A stretch of DNA of 64,000 nt from Robiginitomaculum sp. (GTDB lineage Bacteria > Pseudomonadota > Alphaproteobacteria > Caulobacterales > Maricaulaceae). The DNA lies in assembly GCA_002733495.1 (NCBI GenBank), contig NVVV01000003.1, positions 1-64,000 of the forward strand, in the 5' to 3' direction. Shown here piece by piece: positions 5,433-41,514 of this stretch; the first letter of the stretch is position 1, and the number at the start of each line of letters is the position of its first letter. Under the pieces are notes generated by a model. It was not told the origin of the DNA. It did not search any database and was given only the letters and a program-made list of their open reading frames with translations. The position numbers were made by a program, and so were the translations under genes.

Positions 5433-6014
5433 TTAGATCAAGGACACCAGTTTATGCTGCACGGCCCGATCTCCCTCTATATAGCGCTCTGTGGTGGTCA
5501 GTGCCCGATGGCCCGCAAGTTCCTGAATGTCACGTAAAGACCCACCAGTGTGCATCAGGGCTCTTGCCGCATTGGTTATGAAGGTCCGACGCCCAGAATG
5601 CGATGAACAACCTTTAAGCCCAAGCTGGCGATAGGTGTCATGGAACCAGTTTACTACACTACTGGCGCTCATGGCACCGCCGCGCTCTGATCTGATCACA
5701 GGGCCGGTAAGTGGGTGTTTAGCCTGTTTGTGCTATGCCTGCAGTTTCTTTGCCAAAGTCTTGTGAAGCGGGATAGGGCGGCCAGAGCGGCCTTTGGCGA
5801 TGTGTTTGCTAATCCGTAAGTTGCGTCCAACCTTGCCATTGCTGCGTAAAACCATGCTCCAGTCCAGCCCGGCGATCTCGCAAGCACGCAAGCCCGCTTT
5901 AAAGCTTAAACAGACCATGACTTGATTACGTAACGGATGGCGTTGGTGTTTGACGTGCTTGAGCACCCGGCACAGGTCTGCCGGTTCAAGCACCTTTGCA
6001 GGATGCCTTATCAT
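5433..6014 (-). pseudogene. tyrosine recombinase/integrase interrupted by in-frame TAG
   Basis: FKAGLRACEIAGLDW (Arg), HSGRRTF, AGHRALTTTERYI (His/Arg/Tyr). The two ORFs (5733-6014 and 5433-5699) are in one frame separated only by TAG at 5733-5735: LKKLQA*HKQAKHPLTGPVIRSERGGAMS. Confidence 0.85.
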
Positions 6015-6324: not shown

Positions 6325-6400
<76 letters not shown>

Positions 6401-18330: not shown

Positions 18331-18407
18331 GGGCCTGTAGCTCAGTTGGTTAGAGCCGGCCGCTCATAACGGTCTGGTCGTAGGTTCGAGTCCTACCGGG
18401 CCCACCA
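18331..18407 (+). tRNA. tRNA with CAT anticodon (tRNA-Ile2 likely, tRNA-Met possible)
   Basis: gggcctgtagctcagttggttagagccggccgctcataacggtctggtcgtaggttcgagtcctaccgggcccacca. Confidence 0.9.
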
Positions 18408-18579
18408 TTTTCTTCTGTCCTATCGCGACGGCAAGCCTCGCTATATGAGCACCATTTTCTTTCATCTCACGGCACGAAGAAGCGCCTCCGACGGGGCGGC
18501 GAATGATCGCCGGGGCGCGGTCGCACCCTTGGTTTCGGTTCGAGAAAAGTTCTCTCACCTCCACCATTCGTTCTTTCTT

Positions 18580-32812: not shown

Positions 32813-33010
32813 ATGCGTATCATTAGTGAACTCAACCAATGCACAGGACGATACCTTACTGGCCAGCCATATTACCGACGTATTCCGGGCGGTTTTGAGT
32901 ATGCAGGTTCAGCCGTGCCCATGTGGACCAAAGGTAGCAATCTGGATTTGCTGGATGAGCGCATCAATAATATCTTGCCCCTAGCCCAAGAGGAAAGGGA
33001 ACATTCATGA
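32813..33010 (+). CDS. possible small ORF translationally coupled to the Rieske gene
   Basis: 65-aa ORF ending in an ATGA overlap with the Rieske start (33007); no family recognised. Confidence 0.35.
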
Positions 33011-33540
33011 GCGCTAAAGCGATAACACAACCCGGGCGACGGGATTTTCTGTACATTGCCACGGGCAGTGTGGCGGCCATTGGCACGGGCCTTGTTGGCT
33101 GGCCTTTTATCGACAGCTTAAACCCCTCTGCTGATGTGATGGCCATGAGCAAGATCGAGGTTGACCCGAGCAGTATAGAGGTCGGCCAGCGCATTACCGT
33201 GAAATGGAACAGCAAGCCGGTGTTTATTTGCCGCCGCACCCCCAAGGAAATCGCTGAGGCCGAGGCCGATGATCATGCCAAACTGATCGACCCGGCAACG
33301 GATGATGAACGCGTGCAGACCAAGGAATGGTTGATCGTTATTGGTATTTGCACCCATTTGGGCTGTGTGCCAATCGGCCAGCGTATCCCGCAAAATCGCG
33401 GGCCGTGGCACGGTTGGTACTGCCCCTGTCATGGCTCCATATACGATACCGCCGGACGTGTGCGCCGGGGGCCGGCACCGCGCAATCTGGATCTACCTCC
33501 CTATGCCTTTGGTGCCAATGGCACCGTGCAAATCGGGTGA
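33007..33540 (+). CDS. Rieske iron-sulfur protein (ubiquinol-cytochrome c reductase FeS subunit type)
   Basis: Tat-like [28 protein letters not shown] and [27 protein letters not shown]. Confidence 0.93.
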
Positions 33541-33571
33541 ACTCATCACATAAAAAAGAAAGGAAGCGAAA

Positions 33572-33889
33572 ATGGTCTATAATGAAATCACCGCCACAGT
33601 GGATGTGCTGGCCATGAAACGTGTGCGTCTCAGCCTGCAACAAATTGGCGTTCCTGGCATTAGCGTGTTTCAGGTTCGAGGCTATGGCGAGCGTAAAAAT
33701 TTCTTCCGGCCAAGCTGGATGCAACAGTATAATTGCGTCCGGGTCTTTGCCCCCGAAGATCAGACCGAGCGCATTGTAAACACCATTATGGATGCGGCTC
33801 ATGCGGGTATGGAGGGCGATGGGATTATCGCCGTTAACCCGCTTTCGCACTTCTACAGTATTCGCGATAAAAAACGTATCGATCAGTGA
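33572..33889 (+). CDS. P-II family regulator-like protein
   Basis: ATVDVLAMKRVRLSLQQIGVPGISVFQVRGYGER...VRVFAPEDQTERIVNTIMDAAHAGMEGDGIIAVNPLSHFYSIR. Confidence 0.85.
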   Translation: MVYNEITATVDVLAMKRVRLSLQQIGVPGISVFQVRGYGERKNFFRPSWMQQYNCVRVFAPEDQTERIVNTIMDAAHAGMEGDGIIAVNPLSHFYSIRDKKRIDQ

Positions 33890-34029
33890 GGTGTTGCCGG
33901 CCGGTCAGGCCGCCCCGTCGGAGGCGCATCTTCGCGCTGTGAGACAAAGATAATGGCGGCGCGTTCGGAACGGAGTTCGAACGTGCCGCTACGCGCTCAA
34001 GCAGCGAGGCTTGCCGTCGCGATAGCGCA

Positions 34030-34053
34030 AGAAAAATGGCGGAGAGGTAGGGA
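34030..34053 (+). repeat. direct repeat of the tRNA-Ser 3' end (candidate att site)
   Basis: agaaaaatggcggagaggtaggga vs 41417-41440 agaaaagtggcggagaggaaggga, 22/24 identical. Confidence 0.7.
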
Positions 34054-34393
34054 GAGGATTCCCATAGCGTTACCTTTTCCAACCTATTGTTATAATTAAA
34101 TATTATATTTCATGGGGGCGTTGTCCAATGAAGTTGGAGCGGTTAATGGGGATGTTTTGAATAACATGGTGCATTATTTGTATGCGTAAAGCCCCACCGA
34201 TAAGATCACCCTTTATACGGGAGATTATTCTTCCGGGGTGAGAATCAAGTGCGTGATGATGATCGAACGGGGCCAATGACAAAGAAAACCTGAGGTTCTG
34301 TCAGGTGCTACAGTTCAATCTTCTGAAAGGGACTCGACACGCGGACTTCATCAGGGCCAGCGGTCATCAACACTGCGTCAACAGGCTGGACAC

Positions 34394-35008
34394 ATGACCT
34401 CATCCCGCGCGATCAAATATCACTCAAAAAACTCTTGCAAAACCGGATCGTCCACACATGATAGCCCCCATGTATCACATGATTTTCAATTTGTCGTGAG
34501 TGTAGTCTTTCGGAGGTTTTCACTCATTGACAATCGCTATTCGCGTGTGCAGGCTTATCCGGTGATAACTCAGAAAAATATTAACACCGGGCTTTTCCGG
34601 CGTCTGTCGCAGCTCATGATGCTGGTGGTAGTTTCAGCATGGATGCTGGCAGTTCAGGCTTGTATGCTACACGATGAAGCTGGGGAAACCGGGTTCGTAC
34701 AGGTCGCACAGACACACGTGTCCGGTGATGCTGTATCGAACCATCAGGACCATGAATTTTGCGAAGCAAGTCTGCGGTCACGGACCAATACGGGGCACCA
34801 GTTTGTGGCCGTGGCGGGCCAAAGTATCAAAATAAAAGTGACGCAGACCAATTCGTCTAACCCGGGGTTCATGATTGCAGCACAGCAATTTGATGTGTCC
34901 TTCAACCGGCCTGAAACGATACGCGCCTGTGTCGACACGAATTCATGCCGCTCTGGTCGTAGCTTCGTCTCTTTCTGGTCTCACGCTCCACCCACTGACA
35001 TTGCTTGA
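34394..35008 (+). CDS. hypothetical protein upstream of CzcCBA module
   Basis: Open frame with hydrophobic LMMLVVVSAWMLAVQAC; true start may be internal (~34616). Confidence 0.45.
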   Translation: MTSSRAIKYHSKNSCKTGSSTHDSPHVSHDFQFVVSVVFRRFSLIDNRYSRVQAYPVITQKNINTGLFRRLSQLMMLVVVSAWMLAVQACMLHDEAGETGFVQVAQTHVSGDAVSNHQDHEFCEASLRSRTNTGHQFVAVAGQSIKIKVTQTNSSNPGFMIAAQQFDVSFNRPETIRACVDTNSCRSGRSFVSFWSHAPPTDIA

Positions 35009-35057
35009 TGCTGGCCGGGTGCCTTTGGCATCACTGGCCTTTGAGTAGAAAAGTCAG

Positions 35058-36455
35058 ATGAACCCCGCGCACGGGTTGTGCGCTGCCGGGTTCGACCATC
35101 CAGGGTGGAGAATTCTTATAATGTTATTTCTCTTGCGTCAGTACGGCTGTTGCCGTGCGACAGTGATGCTATTGGCGCTTGTCAGTGCATCGACAATACC
35201 TCAGCGGTCAACGGCCGCAACGGATATGATCCTCAGCGAAGTCATGCAAGCAGCGCTGATCCGTAATCAGGATCTGGAAGCGGCGCGCTCGCAGGTAAAT
35301 GCGGCAATGGGCCGGTTAAAACAGGCCGGACGGTGGCCAAACACACGCCTTGACCTTAGCAACCAGTCAAACAAGGTACTGAGCACTGGCGGCGAATTTA
35401 CGCGGTCCATAGGCTTCTCACAGAATTTCCCCATTGCTGGCCGGATTAATCGGTCCATGGACGTTGCCCGCGTAGATGTGGCCAGCGCATTGACCGAGGT
35501 CAACGAAGCCGAGCGCACGCTGCTCGCTGATGTTGCCAGGGCGTATTATGATATCGTTGCAATCGATCAACAAATTTCCCTGCGAGAGAAGTTGATCACT
35601 ATTGATAAGGCGCTGGTTCGTGCTTCTGCGGCGCGCCAGAAAATGGGCGAAGTTTCTGAAATTGATGTCAATACGGCCAGTTTAGAGCTGGAACGATTGC
35701 GCCAGCAGCAGACGGTATTGGCTGGCAAACGGGCCGCTGTGCTGAAAACCCTCGCCGGTTTGTCCGGGTTTGGCGTAGAAGAGGGGTTGGCCGTCAATAC
35801 GACGCTTCCTGCCATTGTGCCGCCGCCGCCGGTGGAAGAGCTGCGTCGTCAAGCCCTCAGCCAGCGGCCGGATCTGCGTCTGCTTTCTCTTGCCGCCAAT
35901 CGGGCGCGAGGCGAACAATTACTGGCCAAGGCCTCGGCCTGGGAAGACTGGACTGTATCGCTGGGTATCGAACGCGACAAGCTGGTGATCACCGGCCTGC
36001 CACGTCAGTCCACGGATACTGCTCTGTTGCTCAGGTTAAGCGTGCCGATTCCGATATTAAACCGCAATCGTGGTGCCCAGTCTGCCGCCGCAGCGGATGC
36101 CATGACCGCTCACTACAAGCGCTCGGCGCTTCAAATGCGGATCGAAAATGAAGTCACGGGTCGGCACGCGCAGGTCATGCGTCTGCTTGACGCGCTGACG
36201 GCGTACCGGGACCGAACGCTGCCACTTAGCCGCCGCACCGCCGAACTGGCACGCCAGGCCTATCGCATGGGGCAGTTGTCCATTGCCGACGTTGTTCAGG
36301 CCCAACGCCAGGAGATCGATCTCAACGCAAGCTATATCGACACACTGGCTATGTATCTGCAGGCCCGTGCCGATTTAAAAACGGCTACGGCAGGCTGGAC
36401 GACGCTTATGACTCACCCGGTGGACACCTCCACCGATCAAACAGGAGGACGCTGA
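35058..36455 (+). CDS. TolC family outer membrane protein (CzcC-like)
   Basis: Two repeated helical domains: EVMQAALIRNQDLEAARSQVNAAMGRLKQAGRWPNTRLDLS; RQALSQRPDLRLLSLAANRARGEQLLAKASAWEDWTVSLG. Confidence 0.9.
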   Translation: MNPAHGLCAAGFDHPGWRILIMLFLLRQYGCCRATVMLLALVSASTIPQRSTAATDMILSEVMQAALIRNQDLEAARSQVNAAMGRLKQAGRWPNTRLDLSNQSNKVLSTGGEFTRSIGFSQNFPIAGRINRSMDVARVDVASALTEVNEAERTLLADVARAYYDIVAIDQQISLREKLITIDKALVRASAARQKMGEVSEIDVNTASLELERLRQQQTVLAGKRAAVLKTLAGLSGFGVEEGLAVNTTLPAIVPPPPVEELRRQALSQRPDLRLLSLAANRARGEQLLAKASAWEDWTVSLGIERDKLVITGLPRQSTDTALLLRLSVPIPILNRNRGAQSAAAADAMTAHYKRSALQMRIENEVTGRHAQVMRLLDALTAYRDRTLPLSRRTAELARQAYRMGQLSIADVVQAQRQEIDLNASYIDTLAMYLQARADLKTATAGWTTLMTHPVDTSTDQTGGR

Positions 36456-36456
36456 C

Positions 36457-37410
36457 ATGCTGTCCAATTGTCGCAATTACATTTCCATAGTGATGCTGGT
36501 GCTTGCCGCCATCGTCGTCTCTGCCCCCTTGGCATTTGCCCATGGCGAACAAATCAATGTCGGCAATAACAGAGCCAGTGGGCCTGTGTCACTGACATCA
36601 GCACAAATCAAGGCTCTTGGCCTGCAAACCGAGATGGCCGATATGCGTCCAATTGCCCGTCTGCTTGGGGTTAATGGCGCTGTGGCTACCCTTCCCGATG
36701 CACAGGCCAATGTCAGCCTGCGGATCAGCGGTAATGTTAACGCCGTTTATGTCAATCTGGGCGATGCCGTACGCAAGGGGCAAAAACTGGCACTGGTCAT
36801 GGCGCGCGCCGTCGGCAATCCGCCACCAACAGTGGCCGCCCGGGCACCCATAGATGGTATCATTGATGCCCGCAACATTATTGTCGGCCAGAGCGTTGGG
36901 CCGGACACCGCCTTGTTTCACCTTAGTAATCGTCGCCGCATGCTGGTGATTGGTAATGTCTATGAGGAGGATCTGGGTCTTGTTAAGGTCGGGCAAGCGG
37001 CAAAGGTTTCTTTGCTGGCCTACCCCGATAAAACCTTTAGCGGGACCGTCAGCTTCATCGGAACCATGCTGGACCCTGACACGCGCACAGTTGCCTTGTG
37101 GGTATTGTTGGACAACCCGGACAATCTTTTGAAACCAAACCTGTTTGCCCGCGCCGACATTGTTCTGGGGCAAAAAGAAGCCGCATTAACGGTTGCCAAT
37201 GCCGCCGTCCTTGAAGCCAATGGCGACAAGTTTGTATTCATACGCGACGGCGACAACTATGACCGCATCGAGGTCGGAACGGGTACGGAAGATAGCCAAT
37301 ACACCGAAATTACATCCGGGCTTGTGCCTGGCGACGAGGTCGTCACCCAGGGGGCAAGAGAGATTTATACCCTGTGGCTTACCGGCGGCAAACTTGAGGC
37401 GGAGGAATAA
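36457..37410 (+). CDS. efflux RND transporter periplasmic adaptor (CzcB-like)
   Basis: ARAPIDGIIDARNIIVGQSVGPDTALFHLSNRRRMLVIGNVYEEDL; GTVSFIGTMLDPDTRTVALWVLLDNPDNLLKPNLFARADI. Confidence 0.92.
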   Translation: MLSNCRNYISIVMLVLAAIVVSAPLAFAHGEQINVGNNRASGPVSLTSAQIKALGLQTEMADMRPIARLLGVNGAVATLPDAQANVSLRISGNVNAVYVNLGDAVRKGQKLALVMARAVGNPPPTVAARAPIDGIIDARNIIVGQSVGPDTALFHLSNRRRMLVIGNVYEEDLGLVKVGQAAKVSLLAYPDKTFSGTVSFIGTMLDPDTRTVALWVLLDNPDNLLKPNLFARADIVLGQKEAALTVANAAVLEANGDKFVFIRDGDNYDRIEVGTGTEDSQYTEITSGLVPGDEVVTQGAREIYTLWLTGGKLEAEE

Positions 37411-37413
37411 GCC

Positions 37414-40400
37414 ATGTTTAATATGCTAATTGCCTGGTCGCTCAACAACCGGCTGCTGGTGCTGGCCATCACCGTCGTTGCCTTCATCGCTGGCGGCAAT
37501 ATTCTTGGACAAATGAAGGTGGATGTGTTCCCCGAATTTGCGCCGCCCCGGGTGGTCGTCCAGACCCAGACACCGGGGCTGGCCCCAAAAGACGTCGAGG
37601 CGCTGATTACCTACCCGCTGGAAAGCTCCATTAATGGCACGCCGGGGGTGACCGTTGTGCGCTCAAAAAGCTCGGTAGGACTGTCCACCATTACGGTGGT
37701 TTTCGAAGCCGGTACCAACATCTATCTGGACCGTCAATTGGTCAATGAACGCATCATGGCCGTGGCTGGCGATTTGCCGCCGGGTACCACGCCCCCGGTG
37801 ATGCTGCCGGTGACCTCGGCGGTTGGCTGGTTGGTGAAATATTCGCTGACCAGCGATACCGTCTCGCCAATGGAATTGCGGACCATTTCCAACTGGCAGA
37901 TCCGCCCACGTATCCTCTCCCTGGGCGGCATTGCTTCGGTGGTCTCCATTGGCGGCGAGATCAAACAATATCAGGTTCGCCTCGACCCGACGCGGATGCT
38001 GGCTTACCGGATCAGCGCCGACGACATACGCCAGGCGTTAGATGACGCCAATGTCAATGTGCCCGGCGCCTTTCAACAGCGCGGCGCTGAGGAGTTGATC
38101 GTCAGCGGGCAAGGGCGGGTACAGTCGCTCGATGATTTAAGACGTACAGTGATCACCGTCCGTAAAGGAATTCCTATCACGCTGGCCAATGTCGCCACCG
38201 TGGGACTGGGCGGTGAAATCAAGCGCGGCGACGGTGCCTTTGGCATGAAATCAGCGGTGATTGGAACGGTTTCCAAAATCTATGGAGCCGACACGCTGAC
38301 CACTACGGCCAAGGTCGAAAAGGCACTGGCTGAAATCAGGCTGGATCTGCCACCCGGCATCGACATGAACACCAAAATATTCCGCCAGGCCAATTTCATT
38401 GAGGCGGCGATCAGCAATCTCAACAAGTCATTGCTGGAGGGGGCGCTGATCGTGATCGTTGTCCTGTTTGTGTTTCTGATGAATATTCGCGCCTCGTTCA
38501 TCACCTTCTTGTCCATGCCAACATCGTTCGTTGGTGGCATTCTGGTCATGAATGCGCTGGGTATTGGCATCAATGCCATGACCCTGGGTGGTCTGGCCAT
38601 CGCCATTGGTGAGGTGGTGGATAACGGCATCATTACGGTCGAGAATGTGGTCCGTCGCCTGCGGCTCAACCGCAACACGGCACAACCCGTGCCGGCGATG
38701 GAAGTGGTCTTTGACGCGGTACAGGAAATTCTCAACTCCGTTGTCTATGCAACCATCATTGTCAGCATGATTTTTGTCCCCATCTTCCTTCTTCCAGGTC
38801 TGGCAGGGCGGATATTTTCTCCTCTGGGCGTTGCGTATATCGCTTCGGTCCTGGCCTCGCTTGTCGTTGCCGTGACGGTGGTTCCGGCGTTGTGTTACAT
38901 GGTGCTGGTTCGTCGCAAGGAAAAACGCGAGGGTGACAACGTCGCCCTGCATGCCATGTCGCCGGCGGAATTGCGCGCTGATACCGAGGGTTCTGCCGAA
39001 GAAAAAGAGCACGAGACCCGCTTTGTAGTTGTGCTAAAAGCCGGGTTTCTCAAACTTCTCCACCTCAGTCTTGGCCATCCGATACTGGTTGTGACGCTTT
39101 CCCTGGCTTTGCTGGCTGGTGCCCTTGGGACCTTGCCATTTTTTGGGCGCTCGTTTCTGCCAGAATTTCATGAAGGCAATTACATTATCGCCATGACCAC
39201 ATTGCCGGGCACAAACCTGAAGGAAAATATGCGGTTGGGGGCGCAAATTCGCCAATCGCTGCTGCAATACAAACAAGTGGTTTCCGTGGCTCAGCGCGCT
39301 GGCCGTGCCGAGCTGGACGAGGATGCCCAGCCGCCCAATTTTGCCGAATTTGACGTGCGGCTGGATTTTGACAAGGACCCGGATATGACCGCAAACGAGC
39401 TTCTTCGCCGCATTCGCGCCGATCTGGCCAATATTCCGGGTGCCGTGTTCAATGTAGGCCAGTTCATTGCCCACCGCATGGACGAGGTGCAATCAGGTAT
39501 CCGCGCCCAGGTGGCCATCAAGATATTTGGTGACAATCTGGACCAGCTCTATGGACTAGGCCAGAAAGTGCAAGACATTCTGGGCAGTGTAGAGGGCGCT
39601 GTGGATGTCAATCTGGAGCAACAAATCCGGGTGCCCCAAGTCAGTATACAAGTCGATCGCGAACGGGCCGCACGCTATGGTGTGGGCGTTGGCGACGTGC
39701 TTCGCGATGTGCAGATGTATCTGAATGGTGAAGCCATATCGAAAGTGCTGGAAGGTCAAAAGACCTTCGATTTGTTCGTTCGCATGAACAAACCAGGGCG
39801 GGTCGATGTGGCCGCTGTTCGTGATTTGCTGATCGATGCCCCGGCGCTTGGCAGTGGCGGTAAAATTCCCCTGCGCCAGTTGGCCAGTGTTGAGGTCAGG
39901 GATGAACCCTATGTCATCAACCGCGAAACCGCCAAGCGGCGCATTGTCGTGAGCTTTAATGTCCAGGACCGGGATCTGGGCAGCGTTATTGGCGAAACCC
40001 AGGCCAGGGTGGCAAAGGATATTCAACTGCCAGCGGGTTATTACATTGAATATGGCGGTCAGTTCCAGAGCCAGCAGGATGCCAACAAGGTTCTGGGCGG
40101 GTTTGGCTTGATAGCAATATTCGCCGCCCTGATGTTGCTCTACAAGGTGTTTGGAAACTTTCGCGAGGCGCTTTTGGTGCTGATCAACCTGCCGCTGGCG
40201 ATGATCGGCGGTGTTTTCAGCCTCTACCTTGCTGGCGCAGAAATGAGCGTCGCTGCGGTGATTGGCTTTATTACCCTGTTTGGTATTGCCGCCCGCAATG
40301 GCATCATCCTGGTAACCCACTACAACCAGCTTCGCCGCGAAGGCAAACCGCTGAATGAAGTGGTGGTCGAGGGCACGCTGGATCGTCTGGTGCCGGTGCT

Positions 40401-40638
40401 GATGACCGCCGCCACAGCGGCCCTTGGCCTGATCCCGCTATTGTTGGGCTCGCCGGTGGGCAAGGAGCTGGAACGGCCGCTTGCCCTGGTGGTGCTGGGC
40501 GGTTTGTTTACCTCGACGTTTTTGAACATGGTCGTGATACCCACACTGTTCAACCAGATCGAGCTTTTTCGTGAAAGGCGCGCTGCGCGTCGTGCTGCCG
40601 CTCATCCAGAATTATCAACCCAAGGAGAACCAACATGA
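37414..40638 (+). CDS. efflux RND transporter permease, CusA/CzcA heavy-metal type
   Basis: 1074 aa; KVDVFPEFAPPRVVVQTQTPGLAPKDVEALITYPLESSINGTPGV; multiple TM segments. Confidence 0.95.
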   Translation: MFNMLIAWSLNNRLLVLAITVVAFIAGGNILGQMKVDVFPEFAPPRVVVQTQTPGLAPKDVEALITYPLESSINGTPGVTVVRSKSSVGLSTITVVFEAGTNIYLDRQLVNERIMAVAGDLPPGTTPPVMLPVTSAVGWLVKYSLTSDTVSPMELRTISNWQIRPRILSLGGIASVVSIGGEIKQYQVRLDPTRMLAYRISADDIRQALDDANVNVPGAFQQRGAEELIVSGQGRVQSLDDLRRTVITVRKGIPITLANVATVGLGGEIKRGDGAFGMKSAVIGTVSKIYGADTLTTTAKVEKALAEIRLDLPPGIDMNTKIFRQANFIEAAISNLNKSLLEGALIVIVVLFVFLMNIRASFITFLSMPTSFVGGILVMNALGIGINAMTLGGLAIAIGEVVDNGIITVENVVRRLRLNRNTAQPVPAMEVVFDAVQEILNSVVYATIIVSMIFVPIFLLPGLAGRIFSPLGVAYIASVLASLVVAVTVVPALCYMVLVRRKEKREGDNVALHAMSPAELRADTEGSAEEKEHETRFVVVLKAGFLKLLHLSLGHPILVVTLSLALLAGALGTLPFFGRSFLPEFHEGNYIIAMTTLPGTNLKENMRLGAQIRQSLLQYKQVVSVAQRAGRAELDEDAQPPNFAEFDVRLDFDKDPDMTANELLRRIRADLANIPGAVFNVGQFIAHRMDEVQSGIRAQVAIKIFGDNLDQLYGLGQKVQDILGSVEGAVDVNLEQQIRVPQVSIQVDRERAARYGVGVGDVLRDVQMYLNGEAISKVLEGQKTFDLFVRMNKPGRVDVAAVRDLLIDAPALGSGGKIPLRQLASVEVRDEPYVINRETAKRRIVVSFNVQDRDLGSVIGETQARVAKDIQLPAGYYIEYGGQFQSQQDANKVLGGFGLIAIFAALMLLYKVFGNFREALLVLINLPLAMIGGVFSLYLAGAEMSVAAVIGFITLFGIAARNGIILVTHYNQLRREGKPLNEVVVEGTLDRLVPVLMTAATAALGLIPLLLGSPVGKELERPLALVVLGGLFTSTFLNMVVIPTLFNQIELFRERRAARRAAAHPELSTQGEPT

Positions 40639-41075
40639 AATACGCAATATTAAAGCATATCACCGCTGCCGTACTGATTAGTGCCACGCCCGTGCTGGCC
40701 ACTGGCATTGCCTTGGCCAGCGAAGCGAAAACAGAGGCTAAAACGGCCATTCCCGCTACCTCTGAGGGAATATGGCAGGCCATTGACGGTCATGTTTTGG
40801 ATATGCAGGCCATGATCACCACGGGCAAGATGGAGGACATCCATCTGCACGCCTATGCCGTGGGTGATCTGGTGCGGGAATTGCCCGGACATTCCCTGGC
40901 ATTGTCAGACACCGAGCGTGCCAAGGTCGCCGGGCAAGGCAAGTTCATCGATACCCTTGCCGAGCGGCTGGACGAAGCCGGTGATGGCGCAAACAAGAAC
41001 GCCGCAGCATCCAGTCTGGGCAAGCTGGAAAAAGTGCTGAAAATGATCCGTGCCAACTATGCGCCCCGGCCATAG
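40635..41075 (+). CDS. small periplasmic helical protein of the efflux operon
   Basis: Overlaps czcA-like stop by 4 nt; signal peptide; helical DGHVLDMQAMITTGKMEDIHLHAYAVGDLVREL. Confidence 0.75.
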   Translation: MKYAILKHITAAVLISATPVLATGIALASEAKTEAKTAIPATSEGIWQAIDGHVLDMQAMITTGKMEDIHLHAYAVGDLVRELPGHSLALSDTERAKVAGQGKFIDTLAERLDEAGDGANKNAAASSLGKLEKVLKMIRANYAPRP

Positions 41076-41120
41076 CCGAATTGGACTTATCGTAAACAGC
41101 ACAAACATTATCACCGCAAG

Positions 41121-41396
41121 GTGGATAATTTCTGGAGAGGTTTTGAAACAGCGAAACGGGTTTGTTATTTCTACGCACTGTGGTGCGGTCGCTGGTCTTC
41201 AGGGACCAGCATAATTCTTTTCTCCCCACCCGCCAGTGCAGGTCCTTGGGGACAACAAGGCAAATTTGGAACTGATCCCCCCGTCGCGACAGATACCGCA
41301 GTCCTAAATGTGCCAAATCACCCTCCAACCGCTAAGGATTGGAACAGTGAATGGGAACAATACGGAAAGTGCCGGGAAGCCGCTTTATCTAAGTGA
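41121..41396 (+). CDS. hypothetical protein
   Basis: 91-aa ORF with hydrophobic segment ending PASAG; no family recognised. Confidence 0.35.
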   Translation: MDNFWRGFETAKRVCYFYALWCGRWSSGTSIILFSPPASAGPWGQQGKFGTDPPVATDTAVLNVPNHPPTAKDWNSEWEQYGKCREAALSK

Positions 41397-41423
41397 TTGC
41401 TATATAGTCACTTTATAGAAAAG

Positions 41424-41514
41424 TGGCGGAGAGGAAGGGATTCGAACCCTCGAGACGGGAACACCGCCTACTCCCTTAGCAGGGGAGCGCCTTCAACCAC
41501 TCGGCCACCTCTCC
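41424..41514 (-). tRNA. tRNA-Ser (GCT)
   Basis: ggagaggtggccgagtggttgaaggcgctcccctgctaagggagtaggcggtgttcccgtctcgagggttcgaatcccttcctctccgcca; anticodon GCT, long variable arm. Confidence 0.95.

Follow-up and report, generated by a model that had tools for sequence, protein, structure and literature searches.

A probable tRNA-Ser(GCT) genomic island with an acquired heavy-metal efflux operon and without an integrase in Robiginitomaculum sp.

Results

A repeated tRNA end brackets an efflux operon

Within the window, i.e., the 64,000-nt stretch of DNA that was analysed, about 7.4 kb (roughly 34.04-41.42 kb) can with considerable confidence be read as a genomic island at tRNA-Ser(GCT). It carries an acquired operon for a heavy-metal efflux pump of the RND type, its integrase was most likely deleted, and what is left would be a CIME-like remnant. 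The features of the region are listed in Table 1.

The original prediction of a tRNA-targeted island started from a 24-base direct repeat, which proved correct in coordinates, orientation and identity: positions 34030-34053 and 41417-41440 lie on the same strand and agree in 22 of 24 bases. No further copy with up to three mismatches was found in the 64-kb window, and shuffled sequences give an expectation of 0. The second copy had been taken for the 3' end of tRNA-Ser(GCT), with which the ARAGORN annotation agrees. Since this gene is on the minus strand, position 41424 is the tRNA 3' end, and this end faces the efflux operon as expected from island geometry. The tRNA character of the left copy holds for 17 of its 24 bases only, namely TGGCGGAGAGG[A/T]AGGGA at 34037-34053, because the first 7 bases (AGAAAAA) are part of a dispersed repeat present behind several tRNA genes.

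We also searched the 3.2-Mb genome for these 17 bases, allowing for up to two mismatches. The three matches are tRNA-Ser(GCT), the 34037 copy (one mismatch) and a site on contig C13 that is tRNA-Ser(CGA) (two mismatches). That is, 34037-34053 is the sole copy of the tRNA-Ser end in the genome outside a tRNA gene, and about 0.02 such matches are expected at random (up to one mismatch, 3.2 Mb).

Table 1. Features at and within the tRNA-Ser(GCT) island (window coordinates)
Start	End	Strand	Feature	Basis
33900	34036	-	two-part dispersed repeat (tRNA tail); same two parts after tRNA-Met at 18412	
34037	34053	-	copy of the tRNA-Ser(GCT) 3' end; putative outer left attachment-site relic	repeat search of window and genome
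34081	34145	+	relic that looks like a right-arm end, a degenerate core (TGGGGG) and a left arm	85% identical to G000:C21:119-184
34325	34461	+	remnant of an IS110-family downstream end	73-80% to the region immediately behind IS110 transposase genes of plasmids
34394	35008	+	hypothetical ORF; 5' part overlaps the IS110 remnant	
35058	36455	+	outer-membrane efflux protein (CzcC-like; OEP)	PF02321
36457	37410	+	periplasmic adaptor (CzcB-like; HlyD)	profile match
37414	40638	+	CusA/CzcA-family RND permease	TIGR00914, 823 bits; ACR_tran
40635	41075	+	small partner protein, after the permease also in L170 and Legionella plasmids	conserved neighbourhood
41091	41169	-	N-terminal remnant of an IS6/IS240-type transposase gene	
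41187	41423	+	right end (arm) of the element, also at tRNA-Ser(CGA) of G006; TTGGAAC-type pair at 41339 and 41352	
41424	41514	-	tRNA-Ser(GCT), attachment site	ARAGORN

The locus is variable among relatives

We compared the locus among 13 relatives of the genus. On its 5' side, tRNA-Ser(GCT) has the same sugar-transferase gene in all 13 of them, while the 3' side differs from one to the next, except for a related end common to G012, G013 and G014. The efflux genes of the window are absent from this locus in every relative examined. Convergent tRNA-Met and tRNA-Ser genes bound the whole 18.4-41.4 kb stretch, which is a variable zone in the genus; the same two genes, 23 kb apart in the window, also delimit a zone in G010 (26.8 kb) and G003 (3.2 kb).

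A comparison with empty sites had been proposed to check the island. Cargo absence and a variable tRNA 3' side are indeed observed, but a strict empty site, i.e., both flanks intact with nothing between, was not found in the relatives compared. The short zone of G003 comes with incompletely conserved flanks, as do G004, G017 and G005, in which tails of the dispersed repeat family are directly joined to the tRNA-Ser(GCT) 3' end. This arrangement in relatives without the module agrees with the prediction, and neither of the two observations named beforehand as refuting it was made. Two contigs of G004 end in the same 141 bases, which occur identically nowhere else in that genome, though they are a member of a repeat family. 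Given this 141-bp contig-end overlap, on which the adjacency rests, a Rieske-PII gene pair, an unrelated cargo of about 7.9 kb and tRNA-Ser(GCT) most probably follow in a row in G004, which would be the same slot with other contents.

In the window, the Rieske iron-sulphur protein gene and the divergent PII-like protein gene after it occupy 33007-33889, and several genus relatives keep the pair in differing surroundings. The PII-like gene was considered as a partner of the pump and rejected, since relatives have Rieske-PII without a pump.

An autonomous element lies at the same tRNA gene

G010 carries TAGTGGCGGAGAGGAAG 6.4 kb to the left of its tRNA-Ser end, and this copy brackets an independent 6.4-kb element. 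Just inside the left repeat, the element has a gene for a tyrosine recombinase of 426 aa, which comprises an arm-binding, a central and a catalytic domain (Arm-DNA-bind_3, Phage_int_M and PF00589). An integrase-bearing element between repeats of the tRNA-Ser end implies that tRNA-Ser(GCT) very probably serves as an attachment site in the genus.

The island under study has no PF00589 match between 34.0 and 41.4 kb, so that the claimed absence of an integrase holds. Where the integrase of G010 is located, i.e., just inside the left repeat, we find only IS110 debris and an attachment-site relic, which argues that the integrase was most likely lost by deletion.

Two observations concern recombinases elsewhere in this genome (G000). 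A tyrosine-recombinase match with an internal TAG (window 5475-5993, minus strand) is located near the tRNA-Lys(CTT) 3' end at 6325, which suggests a second, decayed tRNA island. Furthermore, G000:C59:10676-12738 contains a pair of adjacent genes for tyrosine recombinases (274 and 431 aa), with similar clusters in G005, G008 and G013; the pair is possibly a recombinase-in-trio element.

The right end recurs at another serine tRNA

A copy of the 237 bp that touch the tRNA (41187-41423) is present, with 85% identity, at tRNA-Ser(CGA) of G006, where it likewise ends 1 bp from the tRNA, and a third copy (G006:C20) stops at TGGCGG. The tRNA-Ser(CGA) of G000 itself has a different end, which is 75% related to the end of the G010 element. 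Thus, both types of element end occur at both serine tRNAs, and the 237-bp arm appears to behave like the end of a mobile element. The arm type of the present island shows TTGGAAC-type pairs spaced by 13 bp, which may be arm-type integrase sites. Its right-arm sequence has no match in viral contigs. Folding of 41187-41300 gave no signal, and folding of the arm yielded a modest hairpin near the core (z of -2.5).

A related junction is located at G000:C21:119-284 (L127). It consists of a right arm, TGGCGG and a left arm with a 13-bp-spaced TTGGAAC pair, shows no tRNA in the stretch read, and resembles an attachment site without an element.

Recurrence of the arm could also be explained by a non-autonomous family that never had an integrase and moves by an integrase acting in trans on the tRNA-Ser core and on the 237-bp arm that the members have in common. 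The arm adjoins tRNA-Ser(CGA) in G006, its third copy terminates at the core, and in none of the copies did we find an integrase beside the arm. But the only other copy abutting a tRNA is on a truncated contig, such that an integrase at the far end would go unseen. G000 has no close relative of the G010 integrase, and the candidate for an arm motif common to the present arm and the G010 element did not rise above shuffles. The IS scars, in turn, fit decay. We therefore consider movement in trans rather unlikely and favour loss of the integrase. The wider notion of an integrase-less family in the genus, whose members share the ~237-bp arm with its 13-bp-spaced TTGGAAC pairs, move with differing cargo from one tRNA-Ser isoacceptor gene to another and have their integrase encoded elsewhere, seems unlikely as well.

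The left copy looks like a displaced tRNA end

Left of the 34037 copy lies the two-part dispersed repeat. Its first part has 8 near-consensus copies in the genome and none in the reversed control; five of the eight come after a tRNA gene (Met, two Thr, Val, Arg), and two have no adjoining recognised tRNA. At tRNA-Met (18331-18407), both parts come after the CCA, ordered as at 33900-34036 and with about equal spacing. Given this shared order of the same two parts, the 34037 copy looks like a former tRNA-Ser end that was displaced from its gene together with its usual tail. In G004, the counterpart of 33992-34053 still runs into tRNA-Ser(GCT) (80% identity).

More generally, many tRNA genes have the two-part repeat immediately behind their CCA, far above chance frequency. 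We see it at 18412-18500 and 33900-34036 of the window, on C9, C40, C63 and C81 of G000, and at tRNA loci of G003, G004, G005 and G017. It could represent termini of integrative elements or else small repeats that target tRNA genes; a literature search on tRNA-tail repeats in Alphaproteobacteria yielded nothing within the terms tried.

Such a dispersed tail opens another explanation, in which it brought the 34037 copy independently of the island and the operon came by IS-mediated transposition or homologous recombination. The two tail copies away from recognised tRNAs and the IS110 and IS6 remnants on either side of the operon are in line with this. Yet the tail copies away from tRNAs lack a tRNA-Ser end, and the 17-base match is specific to tRNA-Ser(GCT), i.e., the very neighbour of the operon, with correct side and orientation. 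Furthermore, the right end is common to an insertion at another tRNA-Ser. An unrelated origin of the left copy is thus quite improbable.

Under the island reading, the left end is still not simple. The second attachment-like relic at 34081-34145 may point to two elements that were once in tandem, such that the outer 34037 copy would bound the older one and the present island would start near 34113.

Concerning gene content, six ORFs had been proposed. Those from the hypothetical ORF through the small protein can be kept, the former with its 5' end in IS110 sequence. The last one (41121-41396) was rejected as protein-coding, since its frame is not conserved: it is interrupted in a G006 copy, and the DNA consists of the IS6-type remnant and the non-coding element end.

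The efflux operon is of distant origin

CzcC, CzcB, CzcA and a small protein had been named as cargo, and this content agrees with the annotation given in Table 1. As in known CusA/CzcA heavy-metal RND systems (TIGR00914), the genes follow the CBA order, and the permease scores above the curated cut-off (701 bits). A difference is the small partner protein after the permease, which is found after it also in a distant MAG locus (L170) and in two Legionella plasmids. Another is that the methionine triad of the E. coli CusA metal site is not conserved in the alignment to CusA, where the aligned residues are A, F and E. Copper genes (cupredoxin, copper-type ATPase, multicopper oxidase) are present at related loci, but in this alignment the permease lacks the triad of a CusA-type Cu(I)/Ag(I) exporter, such that copper is no more than a possible substrate.

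Proteins of two Gammaproteobacteria MAGs share 80% (partial match) and 77% identity with the permease, one of an alphaproteobacterial MAG shares 75%, and the Legionella plasmid copies share 66%. In contrast, CzcA identity does not exceed 42% among 398 genomes of its own order, and no genus relative has a close CzcA relative. This discrepancy indicates that the operon was horizontally acquired from distant bacteria. The suggested shift in GC or codon usage across 34.05-41.4 kb does not stand out: GC3 of the island is slightly richer (0.63 vs 0.59), a difference too slight to be diagnostic.

An operon that is ancestral at the locus, with the repeat due to chance or an old duplication, would fit the absent composition shift but is extremely improbable, given that the module is missing in all genus relatives, its closest CzcA proteins are from distant bacteria, and the chance expectation of the repeat is very low.

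Discussion

The island interpretation is supported by the unique repeat, the variable tRNA 3' side, the foreign pump and the G010 element with the same bracketing repeat. Since the island has a tRNA gene on one side and the directly repeated 3' end of this gene on the other, and since its cargo is missing from the same locus in close relatives, the assignment to tRNA-Ser islands, an ordinary and known kind of genomic island, is well supported. It differs from an intact one by the lack of its own integrase. Both attL and attR are kept, the left site in partly degraded form, and integrase and transfer genes are absent, which makes it CIME-like.

We propose that site-specific recombination at the tRNA-Ser(GCT) 3' end brought the island into the chromosome. 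Recombination in the last tRNA bases would have moved the original tRNA end, together with the repeat tail, to 34037, and the tRNA at 41424 would have been made complete again by the incoming element. The integrase was most likely lost by a later deletion, probably linked to the IS insertions. The outcome would be a CIME-like remnant with a presumably functional pump in an active tRNA-Ser hotspot.

CIMEs, i.e., cis-mobilizable elements, are decayed ICEs or IMEs that keep attL and attR (PMC5704250). The present island shares with them the attachment-site copies that bracket it at a tRNA 3' end, the lack of integration and transfer genes and signs of stacked attachment relics. It differs in its left end, which is degraded by IS remnants; as a CIME, it would be mobilised together with a neighbouring element. 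The ssrA islands of Dehalococcoides, some of which have no integration module (PMC3146451), are similar in that an adaptive operon lies in a highly plastic region, with an RNA gene on one side and the directly repeated 3' end of that gene (20 bp, compared with 17 in our case) on the other. The Dehalococcoides islands target tmRNA, and their recombinase belongs to the serine type; in our case, tRNA-Ser is the target, and the neighbouring autonomous element encodes a tyrosine recombinase.

For the genus, the comparison documents a tRNA-Ser integration hotspot in which an autonomous and an integrase-less form occupy the same tRNA gene in different species, and in which a metal-efflux operon from distant proteobacteria is lodged. 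A further suggestion is that former tRNA ends, once displaced, can be recognised by tRNA-tail repeats, which would aid finding decayed islands from sequence alone.
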